Shown here one piece after another: positions 9,667 through 16,608 of a stretch of DNA of 64,000 bases; the stretch's first letter is position 1; each line of letters opens with the position of its first letter. Source of the DNA: Streptomyces spiramyceticus (lineage in GTDB: Bacteria; Actinomycetota; Actinomycetes; Streptomycetales; Streptomycetaceae); contig NZ_JARBAX010000001.1 of NCBI RefSeq assembly GCF_028807635.1, forward strand, positions 2,452,001 through 2,516,000. Direction: 5' to 3'. The notes below the pieces were generated by a model. The model saw only the letters and a list, made by a program, of their open reading frames with translations, did no database searches and was not told where the DNA came from. A program made the translations under genes and the position numbers.

Positions 9667-10785
9667 TTACGCGGAGGGGATCACTCGTCTCAGTTCAATC
9701 ACCCGTCCTGGGTGGGTAAGCCACACTTCCTGACCGCGCGGACTGACGGTCAGTCCGAATGCGTCAGCGGTCGGCGAGCCGAGACCCACGTAATCCTGGT
9801 ACGCCGTCTCGATGTCCCACCACAGGTCTCGCTCGCCGTACTGCCACGCCTCGCCGGCCTCGGCACAGGCGCCCGAACCTGCCTGGTCCATCAGCCACAC
9901 GGTGATCGTGCCGTCCTCTTCGGCGTGGACCATCGAGACGCCGGGCACCCGAGCGCCCGCGTAGATGGAGAAGCCGACGGTGAGCAGGAGCCGAGGGTCA
10001 ATGTTGGTGTCACTGCGGCGGCCCGGTCCTTCGGCCAGCGGTGGGCGTGCGGGGGCTCGGTGAGATCTCATCGGCATGTACGACACACCGCCCCGGAATG
10101 GGCCTGACGCGATGCCTCCCTCCTGGATCGACAGCTGGACGATCGCGCCGCTCCAGAACTCCCCTGTCGTAGGCGCGACCAGAACGCCGCCCGGTTTCAC
10201 CTGCCGCACCAACTCATGCGGTACGCGGCGCAGTGCGCACGTGGAGATGAGCCGGTCGTACGGCGCTTCGTCCGCATAGCCGTGCTCGCCGTCGGCCACC
10301 ACCACCGTGGGCGCATAGCCCAGGGCCGCCAGGTTGTCCTTCGCCTGGTGAGCCAGAGGCGGGTCGATCTCCAGGCTGAAGACGTGCTCGTCGCCCAGGC
10401 GCTCGGAGAGAAGCGCCGCGACGTAACCGGTAGCGGTGCCGATCGCCAGCACCTTGGTGCCGTCCTCCACATTCAGGTGCTGAAGCATGGTGGCGACCAT
10501 CCCGGGGTGGCTGTTGGAGGACGTGGCCACCCCGGGACCGTCGGCCGCCCCGTCGTCGATCTGGGTCACCACCGGCTCGTTGCTGTAGACGAGCTGCCAC
10601 CACTCAGCCTCCGTGCTGACCGGCTCGCACCGCTCCGGCTCCTGGCGCCAGACCGTCGGTGGGATGAAGCGGTGGCGAGGGACTCGCTCCCAGACCTCGC
10701 GCCAACGCTCGGACAAGAGGCCCTGCTTGGCCAGTAACTCGACGAGCGCGGCGTGCTGTGGGTGCACCTGCACGGTGCTGCCCAC
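9667..10785 (-). CDS. PIMT-fold SAM-dependent O-methyltransferase, peptide-modifying type
   Basis: 372 residues. The N-terminal about 210 residues are like protein-L-isoaspartate O-methyltransferase: RVPRHRFIP, a SSNSHPGMVATML segment equivalent to the SQP..VA loop, SAM motif I VLAIGTATGYVAALLSERLG, and RVPHELVRQVKPGGVLVAP. A further about 160-residue C-terminal domain is not part of housekeeping PIMT. Stand-alone or RiPP-linked enzymes of this type methylate Asp in short precursor peptides (imiditides, and the partner methylases of graspetides and lanthipeptides). Here GTG 10785 starts 2 nt after the stop of a 38-codon peptide gene, within a minus-strand operon below an XRE regulator gene. 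Codon 17 (10737-10735) is TTA, so translation should need the bldA tRNA. The substrate is inferred. Confidence 0.85.
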   Translation of the reverse strand: MGSTVQVHPQHAALVELLAKQGLLSERWREVWERVPRHRFIPPTVWRQEPERCEPVSTEAEWWQLVYSNEPVVTQIDDGAADGPGVATSSNSHPGMVATMLQHLNVEDGTKVLAIGTATGYVAALLSERLGDEHVFSLEIDPPLAHQAKDNLAALGYAPTVVVADGEHGYADEAPYDRLISTCALRRVPHELVRQVKPGGVLVAPTTGEFWSGAIVQLSIQEGGIASGPFRGGVSYMPMRSHRAPARPPLAEGPGRRSDTNIDPRLLLTVGFSIYAGARVPGVSMVHAEEDGTITVWLMDQAGSGACAEAGEAWQYGERDLWWDIETAYQDYVGLGSPTADAFGLTVSPRGQEVWLTHPGRVIELRRVIPSA

Positions 10786-10787
10786 CG

Positions 10788-10904
10788 TCAGTCCCCCGCC
10801 TGGCTGGTGACCTTGGGCGGCGGTCCGTCAGGGGACGGCGGAGGGGGCGGTGGGGTCCATGGTTTGTCGGAGGGCGGGCCAGCGTGCTTACCGTCATCGG
10901 ACAT
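10788..10904 (-). CDS. 38-residue proline-rich peptide, candidate substrate of the adjacent methyltransferase
   Basis: A short gene found by reading the sequence. ATG 10904 is preceded by GGGAGAG 5 nt upstream, and the TGA at 10790-10788 lies 2 nt before the methyltransferase GTG, so the two are translationally coupled. The peptide begins MSDDGKHAGPPSDKPW, continues with a TPPPPPPSPDGPPP tract and ends KVTSQAGD. It has four Asp, three of them in Asp-Gly, Asp-Asp or Asp-Lys contexts, and no Cys. Asp-Gly is the favoured site for methylation-driven succinimide formation by PIMT-type enzymes. A RiPP precursor is therefore a reasonable hypothesis; a small regulatory or accessory protein is the alternative. 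Confidence 0.65.
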   Translation of the reverse strand: MSDDGKHAGPPSDKPWTPPPPPPSPDGPPPKVTSQAGD

Positions 10905-10996
10905 GTGACTCTCCCGGTTCGATGTGATGGGTGAAGAGGCCTGCCTCGTCCGTCGACCTATCCAGGGCGTGGCAGCCGAGGCAGGAGTCAGGTGGC

Positions 10997-11278
10997 TCAG
11001 CTCGCAGGACTGCGGCCTGCCTCGCCGATCGGATTGTCGAGAGCCGGGGTGACACGCCAGAACGACGTCTGCACGGCCCGATAGCCGCGATGCCCTGGAT
11101 TTAGGCCGGTGTGCTTGAGTGCCCAGATCTCAGCCGGCAGCCGCGAGCCGACAACACAAGCCGGGCTCTCCCCGCACGTCGTGCACTCCACGTCGTGCAA
11201 CGGCTGCTGCGGTGCTCCGTCCTCCGTATCAGCGCCGAGGGTCCAGTCCGCGGCTCGAATGATCGCCTTGACGGTCAC
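10997..11278 (-). CDS. DUF7848-type small conserved protein
   Basis: 93 residues from GTG 11278, which has GAGGGGG about 4 nt upstream and overlaps the stop of the preceding gene as GTGA. The product has the pattern ADWTLG, ECTTCGES, EIWALKHTGLNPGHRGYR and TSFWRV. The CxxC pair suggests a small metal or redox site. I recognise it as a Streptomyces-restricted family that accompanies XRE regulators; the function is unknown. An upstream open frame to 11470 is antisense noise from the neighbouring gene. Confidence 0.75.
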   Translation of the reverse strand: MTVKAIIRAADWTLGADTEDGAPQQPLHDVECTTCGESPACVVGSRLPAEIWALKHTGLNPGHRGYRAVQTSFWRVTPALDNPIGEAGRSPAS

Positions 11279-12092: not shown

Positions 12093-13325
12093 CTACACGG
12101 CGGCTCTGATGCCGACCTTCTCGGCCAGTTGGTCGGCCGCAGGGCGCAGCGCGCGAGGAGCTGTCCGCCAAAGCTCGGCCGCCACCGTCCTCGCCGACGG
12201 GGTGTAGGCCACGGTTTCCTCGCCGATCTTGTGAGCGATCTCCATTACATGCAGAGCAGCGGTGCAGTCACCGCGCTGAAGATGACCGCGGGCGACCTCA
12301 ACCCACAGCCGGGCGCGGCGCTCTGTCGACGGCATGATGTCCGGGTCGAGATCGTCAGCGAGAGCCAGTGCTTTGCCGGACGCGCGCAGATCCGTTGCCA
12401 CCGAGATCGCGTGGAAGTCGACGTTGGCGCGGCCGAAGACTGTTGAGGGATGGACGTACGCGGACGGCAGGGACTTCGCGACCTGGTCGCCCGCATCCCA
12501 GTACCGCCAAGCGTCGCCCTCTCGGCCGTCGCGGGCGCAGGTGACGGCGGCGTGCAGCTGCAGGGCGCCGTAGATACCGCGCCAGTCGTTCGGAGCGCCG
12601 TCGAGGTGTGGCCGTATCAGGGCCGCCGCGTCCATGACCACCCTGAGCGCCTCTTCGGGATAGTCCGTTTCGCGGAGGATGTTGCCCATGTTCCAGGCGG
12701 CGGCCGCAATGGCGGCGGGCTGGTCCGCCTGCTGCGCTGCAGCCAGCGCCCGGTCAGCAACCACCCACGCGAGTTCGGCCGGCGCCACGTATGCGGTGGC
12801 TTGCCCGGTGAGGCGGTAGACGTCGGCGAGGGTGACCAGGGCGGCGCGGCGTTCGTCCCCTTCGAGCGTGCGGGCGGCGGCCTCGGCGTCGCGGATCAGG
12901 TCCGGGAGAAGGGCTCCCACCTCGGTACGGTTGTGCTTCGACGTGTGCCACAGCTTCCAGGTCTGATCGACGCGTCCCTGGAGAGATGCGATGGCCATCG
13001 GCTCCGGACGGTTGGCCGACAGACTGCGGCCCATGACGGCAGACCAAATACCGGGCATGGCAGGGTGGTTGAGCCGACCGAGCGGCACAGGCTGCGTCAC
13101 CTGCGAGGAGCCGCCGGTGATGATCGACAAGTCCGAGACCTGAAGGGCTGCGGCCAGTCGCATCAGTAGGCCGTGGGAGCGGAGCGGCCGATCGCCTGAC
13201 TCGATCTTCTTGAGCCAGTCAGGGCCGCGACCGCACAGACCCGCGAGGACAGGGCGCGACATGCCTCGGGACTCTCGCAGTAGTCGGATGCGCTCGCCGG
13301 TGCTGAGGTCGGTGGGGATGTCCAC
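12093..13325 (-). CDS. XRE-family transcriptional regulator with C-terminal helical-repeat sensor domain
   Basis: 410 residues. GTG 13325 is preceded by GAAGGGG at 5 nt. Residues 10-65 form an HTH_XRE domain (GERIRLLRESRGMSRPVLAGLCGRGPDWLKKIESG). The remaining about 330 residues are Ala- and Leu-rich helices with TPR-like spacing (ADVYRLTGQATAYVAPAELAWVVADRALAAA and similar), a layout typical of actinomycete peptide- or metabolite-sensing regulators. It heads the minus-strand block of small genes and the peptide/methyltransferase pair, and is the obvious candidate controller of them. No signal peptide or membrane segment is seen. Confidence 0.9.
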   Translation of the reverse strand: MDIPTDLSTGERIRLLRESRGMSRPVLAGLCGRGPDWLKKIESGDRPLRSHGLLMRLAAALQVSDLSIITGGSSQVTQPVPLGRLNHPAMPGIWSAVMGRSLSANRPEPMAIASLQGRVDQTWKLWHTSKHNRTEVGALLPDLIRDAEAAARTLEGDERRAALVTLADVYRLTGQATAYVAPAELAWVVADRALAAAQQADQPAAIAAAAWNMGNILRETDYPEEALRVVMDAAALIRPHLDGAPNDWRGIYGALQLHAAVTCARDGREGDAWRYWDAGDQVAKSLPSAYVHPSTVFGRANVDFHAISVATDLRASGKALALADDLDPDIMPSTERRARLWVEVARGHLQRGDCTAALHVMEIAHKIGEETVAYTPSARTVAAELWRTAPRALRPAADQLAEKVGIRAAV

Positions 13326-13718: not shown

Positions 13719-14990
13719 TTACTTCCAGTCTGCGACCTCGTAGGAGGCCTTCGCATTGTGGGAGTTGCCCGGGATGTTCGCCCAGGCGAGGCGGTCGGCC
13801 TTTGCGTAGATGACGCTGAAGCCTTCTTCAGCGCCGACTCGCCACAGCTTCCCGGACTCGAACTCGTACACGTACTGGCCTGCGTCCCCGGCGGCGCTGC
13901 CGTTGCCCCACACGAGGTGATCGTCGGTGGAGCGCAGGAACATCGTGGATGGCCCGGCATGGCCGAGTTTGAACGTGACGGCGTTGTTGGTCTTCAAGTC
14001 GAGCGAGTAGAGCCTTGAATTTGCCTGTTCGGGGTTGGCGATGACCCAGTTCACGCGTGAGGATTTCACGGAGAGCGTGGAAACCTCCTGGCCCGCGGTG
14101 AGTGGGCCGCCTGCGACCAGCCTGTCGGTTCCGTTCGCCTCCCTCTTCCGGATCTCGAAGCGGTCCTTGGGGAAGCCGGGTGCAATGTCTGCCGAGCGGA
14201 CATAGAAGAGCGTGTCACCCACCGCCCGGGGCAGCTTGGCGTGGTCAACAGCCGTTTCCAGGCCCGAACCGCCGGTCAGCTGCCGCGCCACCACCTTGAC
14301 TCCGAACTTCGGTTTGCCGGAGGTCTGGTAGGTGGTGGCCCAGAACGCCTTGGACTGGCCGAGAGACACAGCGGAACTGCCTGAGGGTTCTGGCATCCCC
14401 TGCTGCCTGCCGCTGACAGAGGCGGAGTCTCCCAAGAGGGTGGTGGTCTTGGTGCCTGGATCGTAGGCAAAGACGCACCAGTCGAAGGCGTACAGATTTG
14501 TGCTGGCGGACTCGACCCAGGCAACGGTCCCGTCGCGTTCGTCGGCGTAGACGGCCTGGCGAGGAGTGTTGCGGCACGTGCCGTTCTTGGCGGCGGGGAA
14601 GGGGGAGAAGGACGTCGCGTCCTGGAGGCCAACTCGGCTCTGGCCGATGCGGACTACACCGTCAGTGCTCTTCGGTTCTGAGTTGGCGGCGGCCACCAGC
14701 CGACCGGATGCGGTGATGTCCAGGATGTTCGTCGTGAGGCCCGCACCCAGGTTGGCCTTGGGCGCGTAGCGCGGGTCGTACTGTCGGCCCGCGCTCGCCG
14801 ACCGGGCAGTGTCTGTGCCGATCTCGGATGTCAGGTTGAACGATCTCCCTGCCGCAGGCTTCGTTGCCGTAGGTGCGGTGGGCCGGGCTGAGGGGGTGTC
14901 CCCCGCCGGCGGGCGGGGACTTTCCTCACTGGTACAGGCGGTCAGCCCGACGAGCAGGATCACGATGGGCAGCGCCGGGCTGACTCGCAT
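13719..14990 (-). CDS. Secreted lipoprotein, beta-propeller-like
   Basis: 423 residues with a lipoprotein signal: MRVSPALPIVILLVGLTAC, lipobox LTAC with Cys19. A Pro/Thr/Ser-rich linker follows (about residues 20-55). The rest shows repeated Leu/Trp strands such as GTVAWVESAS, SKAFWATTYQ, SRVNWVIANP and DHLVWGNGS at similar spacing, consistent with a beta-propeller on the outer membrane face. The start is 2 nt from the stop of the C39-like gene upstream, so the two are co-transcribed. No enzymatic motif; a binding or chaperone role for the partner is inference. Confidence 0.8.
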   Translation of the reverse strand: MRVSPALPIVILLVGLTACTSEESPRPPAGDTPSARPTAPTATKPAAGRSFNLTSEIGTDTARSASAGRQYDPRYAPKANLGAGLTTNILDITASGRLVAAANSEPKSTDGVVRIGQSRVGLQDATSFSPFPAAKNGTCRNTPRQAVYADERDGTVAWVESASTNLYAFDWCVFAYDPGTKTTTLLGDSASVSGRQQGMPEPSGSSAVSLGQSKAFWATTYQTSGKPKFGVKVVARQLTGGSGLETAVDHAKLPRAVGDTLFYVRSADIAPGFPKDRFEIRKREANGTDRLVAGGPLTAGQEVSTLSVKSSRVNWVIANPEQANSRLYSLDLKTNNAVTFKLGHAGPSTMFLRSTDDHLVWGNGSAAGDAGQYVYEFESGKLWRVGAEEGFSVIYAKADRLAWANIPGNSHNAKASYEVADWK

Positions 14991-14991
14991 G

Positions 14992-15897
14992 TTAGTAGGC
15001 GTATCCGTTCGACTGGAGGAAGTAGCTGGTGAAGTTGCGGGTGTTGTACGCGAACGTCTTGCTCACGCCGTTCCACACCGTTGTCGAGGGATCTGCCCAC
15101 TTACTGCTTGAGCCGTTGGAGGTGTAGCCGTAGGCGGTTATCCAGTGACCGATCGTCTTGTTGACCGGATGGCCGTTGTAGTGCCGCCCGTTCGCGAACT
15201 CGACGGTGTCCGCAGCGATCGGCATACCGTTGCCGCCGATGCTGTGGAGCATCGTCTTCACGGCGTTCGTGGGTGTCGGCGAAGGGACCTGCACGTACCA
15301 GTTCTGCCCCCGCCACCGGTTGATACCCGTGACGAACTTCTTGGTTCCCCAGTCGGTCACGCGCGCGTTCGCGGTGTTCATGTGAGCGCTGTTCGCCAGG
15401 TTCTGCTGGCTGAAGGCATTGTTGTTGTAGCGGCTCCTGATCGACCCGTTCACGCTCTTGATCATCATGGCTGCGGTCGCCGGCCCGCAGAAGTAGCCTG
15501 TTGCCTGACCGTAGTGCCTCAGCGACAGCGTGCGACTACTGGGCGCCGCGGTGGCGGCATAGGGCGAAGCGGCGTTGAGCTGGGCTGCGCCCTGCTTGTC
15601 CAGCCCATATTTTTGAAGGAACGTCTTCTCCCGCTCGGCGTACTCCGCCTTACTGCTGCGACCCTCGTGGGCACTGAACCACGCGTCGGTCAGCGCGATT
15701 TTCTCCTTGGCCTGCGCGGACAGCTCCTTGCCCTGCTGCGGGCGGGAAACGTCGCCGCCCGTGTAATTACCGACGATTCCGCCGTGGGGTCCTTCCTCGG
15801 CGTGCGCTGCCGGAGCGATCACCATTACCGACCCGACAGCAGTGGTAGTGCAGATGGCGGCGATAATTCCGGATCTTAATTGACGTGGGACCCTCAT
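14992..15897 (-). CDS. Secreted C39-like (papain-fold) protein, bldA-dependent
   Basis: 301 residues from ATG 15897, with GGGGGA 8 nt upstream. Sec signal peptide about residues 1-35, ending APAAHA. After a helical propeptide-like region comes RHYGQATGYFCGPATAAMMI, the catalytic-Cys block of C39_2-type cysteine peptidases. GHWITAYGY holds the His and WADPST the Asp. Related Streptomyces proteins are exported and of unproven activity. Codon 7, inside the signal peptide, is TTA (15879-15877), so expression should wait for bldA tRNA and fit late growth or development. It is coupled to the lipoprotein gene downstream. Confidence 0.85.
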   Translation of the reverse strand: MRVPRQLRSGIIAAICTTTAVGSVMVIAPAAHAEEGPHGGIVGNYTGGDVSRPQQGKELSAQAKEKIALTDAWFSAHEGRSSKAEYAEREKTFLQKYGLDKQGAAQLNAASPYAATAAPSSRTLSLRHYGQATGYFCGPATAAMMIKSVNGSIRSRYNNNAFSQQNLANSAHMNTANARVTDWGTKKFVTGINRWRGQNWYVQVPSPTPTNAVKTMLHSIGGNGMPIAADTVEFANGRHYNGHPVNKTIGHWITAYGYTSNGSSSKWADPSTTVWNGVSKTFAYNTRNFTSYFLQSNGYAY

Positions 15898-16608
15898 TAG
15901 CGCTTTCCCCCTTTGCGTAGACCTAGCGGTGCCTGTCATTCAGAGGACTGCATGAACAGAGCATCCATGTGGCCGCTCGTCGTCCAACACCCTCTGTAGA
16001 CCACAACGAAGCCAACACCTCGTGCGCCTTGACCGTCAACTGCCTTTGCGCTGGTCCCGGCACACCGCAACTTCACGGAAGCAGTAAATTCGCGTCACGG
16101 GAGTTCTAACCGGAAGTTCTAATTGATGCAGGAATCGGGAGGTTGCGCGAACGAGGGAGAGGCAAAGGGAACCTGCCATCCAGTTTCTCCGGCCCACCGT
16201 CGCGCATTGGGTGGCGCAATCTTGCCCCCCGTTTATGCCTCAAAGTCCAGCATCACAAAAGGGCGAAAAATCATTAAAGGTGCATGTGGTCGGTCGCCGA
16301 CAACTCCTACAACTTCTGGCCATGCCTGATGGAAGCGACCGGCGACATGGGCGATTTCCATCAACGCCCGGCTTCCGTTTTTTCCAGCTTTCACCGATGC
16401 CTGTCCCGAGGCGGAGGTCGGCGAGCAGCGAACTCAGCCCTGACGGACACTCGACTTCAGGAGTCCTTGATGCGGCGTTTCCGGCTTCGCATCGCCACAT
16501 CACGAACAGGCACCTGGCCACAGGGCACGTCGTGTCCGCCATCGCCCTAAGCGCCGACTGCCTGGGGGTAGGGGAAGAGAGAAAGCTCCGCCCGGCACGT
16601 CGGCACGC
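15898..16608. other. 711-bp intergenic region, lower GC than its surroundings
   Basis: No convincing gene. The stretch 16070-16290 is distinctly AT-richer and has a near-direct repeat (GGAGTTCTAAC and GGAAGTTCTAAT at about 16099-16122). Open frames at 16123-16329 and 16240-16542 have no recognisable product or ribosome-binding site. It must include the promoter of the C39-like gene. It may be decayed DNA at the right edge of the accessory block. Confidence 0.45.

Follow-up and report, generated by a model that had tools for sequence, protein, structure and literature searches.

Lee et al. described type I pamtides in 2023 as two-gene clusters that pair a precursor with a PAMT (protein L-aspartyl O-methyltransferase, a PIMT homologue) bearing a C-terminal domain (PMC10787088). 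In the part of that study covered here, the precursors are given as ~45 residues long, rich in the three residues Gly, Pro and Asp and with one conserved Asp close to a Pro or Gly; the SpaA/SpaM pair of Streptomyces sparsogenes DSM 40356 is reported to form, from a linear peptide, species shifted by +14 and −18 Da, and by the same text its authors did not directly confirm isoaspartate for SpaM (PMC10787088). The covered sections of a 2026 review by Zhu and Link equate type I pamtides with imiditides and count 1414 of them (PMC13001092). Two further classes share parts of this plan. Type II pamtides (cysimiditides) have the same two-gene layout with a PAMT but a precursor containing a CxxCxGxG zinc ribbon. 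Group 13 graspetides (graspimiditides) use a related methyltransferase, with TIGR04188 the best model both for it and for the enzyme studied here, and Asp-Gly is the site in four characterised cases, as given in the covered part of the review (PMC13001092); they differ from our locus in having an adjoining ATP-grasp synthetase and a pattern of ester-forming residues in the peptide. The Thermotoga maritima protein of entry 1dl5, named PIMT in the PDB, is according to the part of Lee et al. covered here the only solved structure of the PAMT clade (PMC10787088).

The window, our term for the whole 64,000-nucleotide stretch of Streptomyces spiramyceticus DNA that we analysed, contains a pair of genes with the following features.

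10788..10904, minus strand: precursor peptide gene, by our reading of the type I pamtide/imiditide kind (translation, conservation, homologues and purifying selection)
10910..10915, minus strand: GGGAGA, likely ribosome-binding site of the peptide gene (sequence)
10827..10829, minus strand: codon of Asp26, the predicted modified residue (sole Asp invariant in the close clade, 33/33 aligned rows)
9667..10785, minus strand: PAMT gene, GTG start, 372 residues (profile matches, tree and predicted model)
9703..10053, minus strand: predicted C-terminal domain of the PAMT, residues ~245–361, beta-alpha-beta4-alpha plus two strands (predicted model and 1dl5 alignment)
10423..10446, minus strand: motif I, AIGTATGY, residues 114–121 (alignment of 56 enzymes)
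9772..9792, minus strand: YVGLGSP, the clade form of the WxxxGxP motif of RiPP-associated PIMTs (alignment)

Translation of 10788–10904 on the minus strand gives the 38-residue peptide MSDDGKHAGPPSDKPWTPPPPPPSPDGPPPKVTSQAGD, which includes a PPPPPP run and is composed of 13 Pro, 5 Asp and 4 Gly among other residues, so that it exceeds the published average for type I in Pro and falls below it in Gly; it has no Cys, and hence no zinc ribbon of the type II kind. The original prediction, made from the letters alone, had proposed a 38-codon gene with a good ribosome-binding site ending 2 nt ahead of a methyltransferase gene, and this arrangement is present as described, with GGGAGA 5 nt before the ATG and the TGA of the peptide gene followed by 2 nt and the GTG of the 372-residue enzyme frame. 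It had also singled out two Asp-Gly sites flanking a poly-Pro tract in a peptide without Cys. Both dipeptides exist, at residues 4–5 and 26–27 on either side of the tract, and Cys is absent, but only the 26–27 site is conserved.

The enzyme matches PCMT in Pfam (E 6e-31), and its best NCBIfam model is TIGR04188, which covers residues 14–353 at 313.8 bits against a curated cutoff of 380; the model of canonical repair PIMTs, TIGR00080, scores 100 bits against a cutoff of 159. A predicted structure (pLDDT 88.4) consists of a PIMT core and a C-terminal domain, in line with the architecture proposed from the sequence, and aligns to T. maritima PIMT over residues 10–361 with an rmsd of 7.0, a fold match over almost the full length, C-terminal domain included. 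To our knowledge, no precursor has been linked to that protein. In the model, the C-terminal extension exceeds 100 residues, as in type I pamtide enzymes. Within AIGTATGY, which we take to be motif I and the SAM site, residue 114 is Ala in the window enzyme and Glu in 53 or Asp in 2 of the 56 aligned enzymes. Ala114 might lower the activity of the enzyme; decay is not suggested, because comparison with its two nearest relatives gives low pN/pS values (~0.27 and 0.30). The WxxxGxP motif near the C-terminus keeps its Gly in 52 and its Pro in all 56 aligned enzymes, and its first residue in the 33 close enzymes is Y in 30, W in 2 and F in 1.

These features lead us to read the two genes as a type I pamtide (imiditide) locus, with a probability of about 0.88, and the locus almost certainly adds a member to an already published class and does not open a new one, because the published class fits and a homologue of the peptide occurs in the strain from which SpaA/SpaM come. 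That homologue, P0216 of S. sparsogenes DSM 40356, has the sequence MIPQGKHKGDPAPIKPWTPPPPPPPDGNQPPKEK, matches our family profile at E 3e-6 and is likely SpaA itself; no peptide identical to it was found among the 392 genomes searched. With its middle KHKGDPAPIKPWTPPPPPPPDG it plainly belongs to the family of the window peptide, the two falling on different sides of a subtype division, PSDKPW for the window and PAPIKPW for the S. sparsogenes strain. Like SpaA/SpaM and NmaA/NmaM (Nonomuraea maritima), the window locus has a two-gene layout, a short linear Pro/Gly/Asp-rich peptide whose conserved Asp lies close to Pro and Gly, a PIMT homologue with a C-terminal domain and, among the genes scanned, no primary enzyme of another RiPP class. 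At 38 residues, the precursor is Gly/Pro/Asp-rich, with Gly below the published average. The type I WxxxGxP motif reads YxxxGxP in most of the window clade, and modification, demonstrated for SpaM, is predicted for the window pair. The original prediction was thus right about the class of mechanism and wrong about novelty: it had called the locus a candidate new RiPP locus whose peptide resembled none of the precursors known to it, and such clusters have been in print since 2023 under the names type I pamtides and imiditides (PMC10787088, PMC13001092), with a clear relative of the peptide in the source strain of SpaA/SpaM.

The pair is conserved. We defined the close clade as places at ≥47% identity among 295 genomes of the same genus, which gave at least 36 places in 28 of the 295; with L001 of Streptomyces sp. 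ISL-98, and leaving aside a remnant at C1:3228163-3228999, the set comprises 37 loci. A peptide frame lies upstream in 35 of the 37 listed close enzyme relatives, and in 33 it has an ordinary start. A clean precursor is missing at the other four listed loci. Two of these, G230 and G100b, keep the frame with the ordinary start absent nearby; in G096a (L073) a frameshift beyond the KPW motif has cost the precursor its Asp-Gly, while the enzyme frame is open and the genome also has an intact sister copy; and in G175 the enzyme is 5'-truncated and the upstream peptide absent. Two of the 33, G273 and G194, have shortened enzyme frames. The reverse search, started from a 34-residue relative of the peptide, matched 22 of 392 genomes at no fewer than 27 places, and a PAMT match lay downstream at 12/12 of the loci fetched from the 27 places listed, 4 of them already in the close set and 8 new, with partial matches at L154 (contig end) and L164 (from residue 88).

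Aligning the 33 close precursors with one distant row from the same genome as the window (G000c), and leaving G230, G100b, G096a and G175 aside, gives 34 rows with the consensus KHxGxP-(SD or API)-KPWTPP...PSPDGxxP. Asp26 and Gly27 are invariant in all 34, including the 33 close rows. Elsewhere, position 13 is Asp in 27/34. Of the conserved charged residues expected at the ends of type I precursors, K6 occurs in 31/34 and K14 in 32/34, but the C-terminus is variable. We rejected Asp4-Gly5 as a conserved site, position 4 being Asp in only 11 of the 34 rows. A profile built from 17 peptides recovered 108 homologues in the database with E ≤ 1, and wherever a listed match names its species this is a Streptomyces; with the window peptide added, Asp26 is kept in 106/109 rows and Gly27 in 107/109, and two of the three Asp26 exceptions look frameshifted. 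Selection on the peptide frame is purifying but not uniform over pairs: pooled over 20 peptide pairs chosen within subtypes, some rows being used in more than one pair, pN/pS comes to 0.37 in the frame of the peptide, compared with 1.61 and 1.25 when the reading is shifted to the other frames, and one pair of the 20 (G210a/G251) has pN slightly above pS. Both of the sequence checks suggested at the outset, conservation of the short frame ahead of homologous methyltransferases and purifying selection on its 38 codons, thus came out in favour of the pair (33/37 listed loci with an ordinary start and 12/12 in the reciprocal search; 0.37 versus 1.61/1.25). Together, the conserved pairing and the selection support, at the level of sequence, the proposal that the peptide is the substrate of the PIMT homologue, as in imiditides.

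Leader peptides control the translation of some resistance methyltransferases, and the short frame could instead be a regulatory leader, with ribosome stalling at the poly-Pro tract setting translation of the methyltransferase. The frame does contain PPPPPP and end 2 nt before the enzyme start, and GGGGGA inside the end of the peptide gene could serve that start. Across the close loci, the peptide stop lies close to the nearest enzyme start in 33/33, at positions from 4 nt inside the enzyme gene to 10 nt ahead of it (−4 to +10 nt), with a 4-nt overlap in 13/33, and translation is therefore probably coupled. Equally tight coupling is, however, what a precursor–enzyme operon predicts, and K, H, G and W residues as well as the Asp-Gly are conserved outside the Pro tract. 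Moreover, other clades of the enzyme have at this place Gly-rich peptides with Asp-Gly and without poly-Pro, and we found no conserved RNA structure across the peptide gene in the six sequences folded (z 0.62, −0.73, 0.70, −0.86, 1.64, −1.89). We regard a regulatory leader as improbable.

That the frame encodes a type I pamtide precursor agrees with the way precursors are distributed over the enzyme tree. The tree holds 56 rows, namely 33 close enzymes, 3 distant ones from the same genome as the window and 20 distant ones hand-picked among the places listed, with large contigs favoured; the short close frames G100b, G273, G194 and G175 were excluded, as were the remnant and G000f. Precursor type follows enzyme phylogeny: with labels set by motif patterns, including a class of others, 6 changes are needed on the tree, where the minimum is 5 and the mean after shuffling 28.2. 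The window enzyme lies in a clade of 26 PSDKPW rows with support 100/100. Beyond the close clade, eight precursors are of type B (KHGGGGSDEGG; L084, L085, L087–L090, L092, L095), four of type C (DGHKP with KPIPP; L086, L091, L096, L099) and three of type D (DGQSPT or similar; L094, L097, L100), and further types also occur. In other PAMT clades, type I-like precursors stand directly upstream of the enzyme, some of them Gly-rich and without poly-Pro. Two distant loci, xG007 and xG089, have a TIGR04187 gene directly upstream that scores over its cutoff (375.8 and 370.2 bits) and are therefore graspetide loci. We dropped the TIGR04188 cutoff as a separator of pamtides from graspetides because the xG007 methyltransferase, beside a graspetide synthetase, also scores below 380 (316.5 bits).

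Upstream of the pair lie three neighbouring genes.

10997..11278, minus strand: small DUF7848 gene, in a ~2 kb block shared with a second family copy at 79% DNA identity
11275..11754, minus strand: 159-residue frame, mostly within the same ~2 kb shared block (DNA comparison)
12093..13325, minus strand: XRE-family (HTH_31) regulator, 410 residues, start placed by homology

The second intact family copy of the genome, at C1:4584553, is 81% identical and keeps Glu114; the block common to it and the window covers the enzyme, the peptide, the DUF7848 gene and the greater part of the 159-residue frame, and excludes the regulator. A third copy, the remnant at C1:3228163-3228999 (L043), has an internal gap, a frame break and no recognisable precursor. 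Type I-like peptides also accompany more distant PAMT copies at C1:2302931, C1:3350449 and C2:1886962. At C2:1886962 the peptide lacks an ordinary start nearby. We rejected the small neighbours as general PAMT partners, given their presence in 1–3 of 61 other contexts searched: DUF7848 adjoins a PAMT in three (G000b, ISL98 and, on the far side, G266), the 159-residue frame in one (G000b) and a 93-residue frame in two (G230, G100b). Beyond the XRE gene, at 13719–15939, a lipoprotein-like gene of 423 residues adjoins a C39-like peptidase gene (PF13529); the C39-like protein, encoded ~4 kb upstream of the pair, looks secreted, and neither gene had a match in the 61 other PAMT contexts searched. 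On the downstream side, a convergent gene for an amino-acid permease and one for a PLP decarboxylase are followed by genes for urocanase, an M20 peptidase and an amidohydrolase; the group looks like one for histidine use, with no relation to the pair. The earlier remark that no ATP-grasp, lanthionine synthetase or exporter gene is adjacent agrees with our scan of the neighbouring genes, among which we likewise found no leader peptidase. The one TIGR04187 match of the genome (L152, C1:769206-770114) scores over the curated cutoff and is ~1.7 Mb from the window.

This distant ATP-grasp synthetase could in principle act in trans, forming ester rings on the peptide before the methyltransferase acts on a ring, as in a graspetide pathway; that TIGR04188 is the best model for the window enzyme fits such a route. 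But no ATP-grasp synthetase adjoins the window pair among the genes scanned, whereas xG007 and xG089 have theirs directly upstream, the enzymes of those two loci branch apart from the window clade, and the precursor lacks a repeated pattern of Thr/Ser and Asp/Glu, so that a graspetide route appears even less probable than a regulatory leader. Least probable of all, and scarcely credible, is an ordinary protein-repair PIMT behind an unrelated small frame, which would account for the PCMT core but not for the extra C-terminal domain, the scores under the cutoffs of repair-enzyme models or a conserved precursor that tracks the enzyme tree.

For a type I pamtide locus, published relatives suggest how the pair may work, and the points observed directly at these loci, which are the pairing and its conservation, the tight coupling of the two genes, purifying selection on the peptide, an invariant Asp-Gly and the architecture of the enzyme, can be set beside a chemistry, a site and a mode of linear-substrate recognition that we infer by analogy. 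The 38-residue peptide would be made on the ribosome and, as in published type I cases, bound by the adjacent PAMT in linear form. Next, the PAMT would most likely use SAM to methylate the side chain of Asp26 in PSPD-G, the resulting methyl ester would close on the backbone amide of Gly27 to form an aspartimide, and the aspartimide would then open largely to isoaspartate.

The XRE regulator upstream may be functionally linked to the pair. We built an HMM from the regulators near close loci and ran it on all loci and, for comparison, on 20 stretches of 20 kb of control DNA taken from genomes of the set. A match lies ≤6 kb upstream in 16 of the 37 listed close loci, a figure that is biased because these loci trained the HMM, and in 13 of 24 distant loci, none of whose regulators were in the training set; the 13 comprise 11/20 hand-picked loci, one graspetide locus among them, and 2/4 distant copies from the window's own genome. 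Control DNA gave 4 matches in 400 kb, and on the downstream side there were matches at 5/37 close and 2/24 distant loci. For the distant set, the enrichment has a one-sided binomial value of 2e-5, calculated with relatedness ignored. Upstream matches are on the strand of the enzyme in 16/17 cases in the close set and 5/13 in the distant set. Loci with an XRE gene upstream include L048, L051, L062, L064, L065, L070, L071, L073, L076, L077 and L079, and PAMT loci of this kind are mostly type I pamtide-like. Within the window's own genome, which has 52 HTH_31 matches in 7.08 Mb, one lies within ~2.4 kb of 3/6 PAMT-type places, a count that leaves out the remnant and a short match at C2:1546752; the corresponding value is 0.0035 for 4 kb either side.

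We rejected the idea that the window regulator is dedicated to pamtides: a PAMT lies within the 1.5 kb flank in 3 of 30 regulator loci fetched (the window, G100 and G112). Its 120 listed homologues are 76–100% identical, and a homologue above 70% occurs in 6 of 150 sampled genomes, its own included. In sequence searches against solved structures, chiefly the HTH part of the regulator is matched, with PlcR and ComR among many; the rest has two weak matches, 9k7u (E 0.0011) and 8glv (E 0.0054), neither as a single stretch. A parallel comes from group 13 graspetides, which according to the part of Carter et al. (2026) covered here may co-occur with DUF397/DUF5753 XRE pairs (PMC13097080). In the parts of the literature covered here, we found no statement of an XRE association for type I pamtides. 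It is conceivable, if rather doubtful, that the type I pamtides of Streptomyces are part of intracellular peptide signalling, in which the XRE regulators with a large C-terminal domain, present upstream of loci of several precursor families at well above the chance rate, sense the Asp-rearranged peptide or control its making.

More broadly, these comparisons provide a clean, family-wide definition of one type of pamtide, KHxGxP-SD/API-KPWTPP...PSPDGxxP, with a single invariant Asp that therefore indicates the residue to test, and they show precursor type and enzyme phylogeny moving together. The enrichment of XRE genes and its graspetide parallel offer a handle on the role and timing of type I peptides and, if the signalling reading is true, a link between this class and a receptor would have been proposed for the first time.
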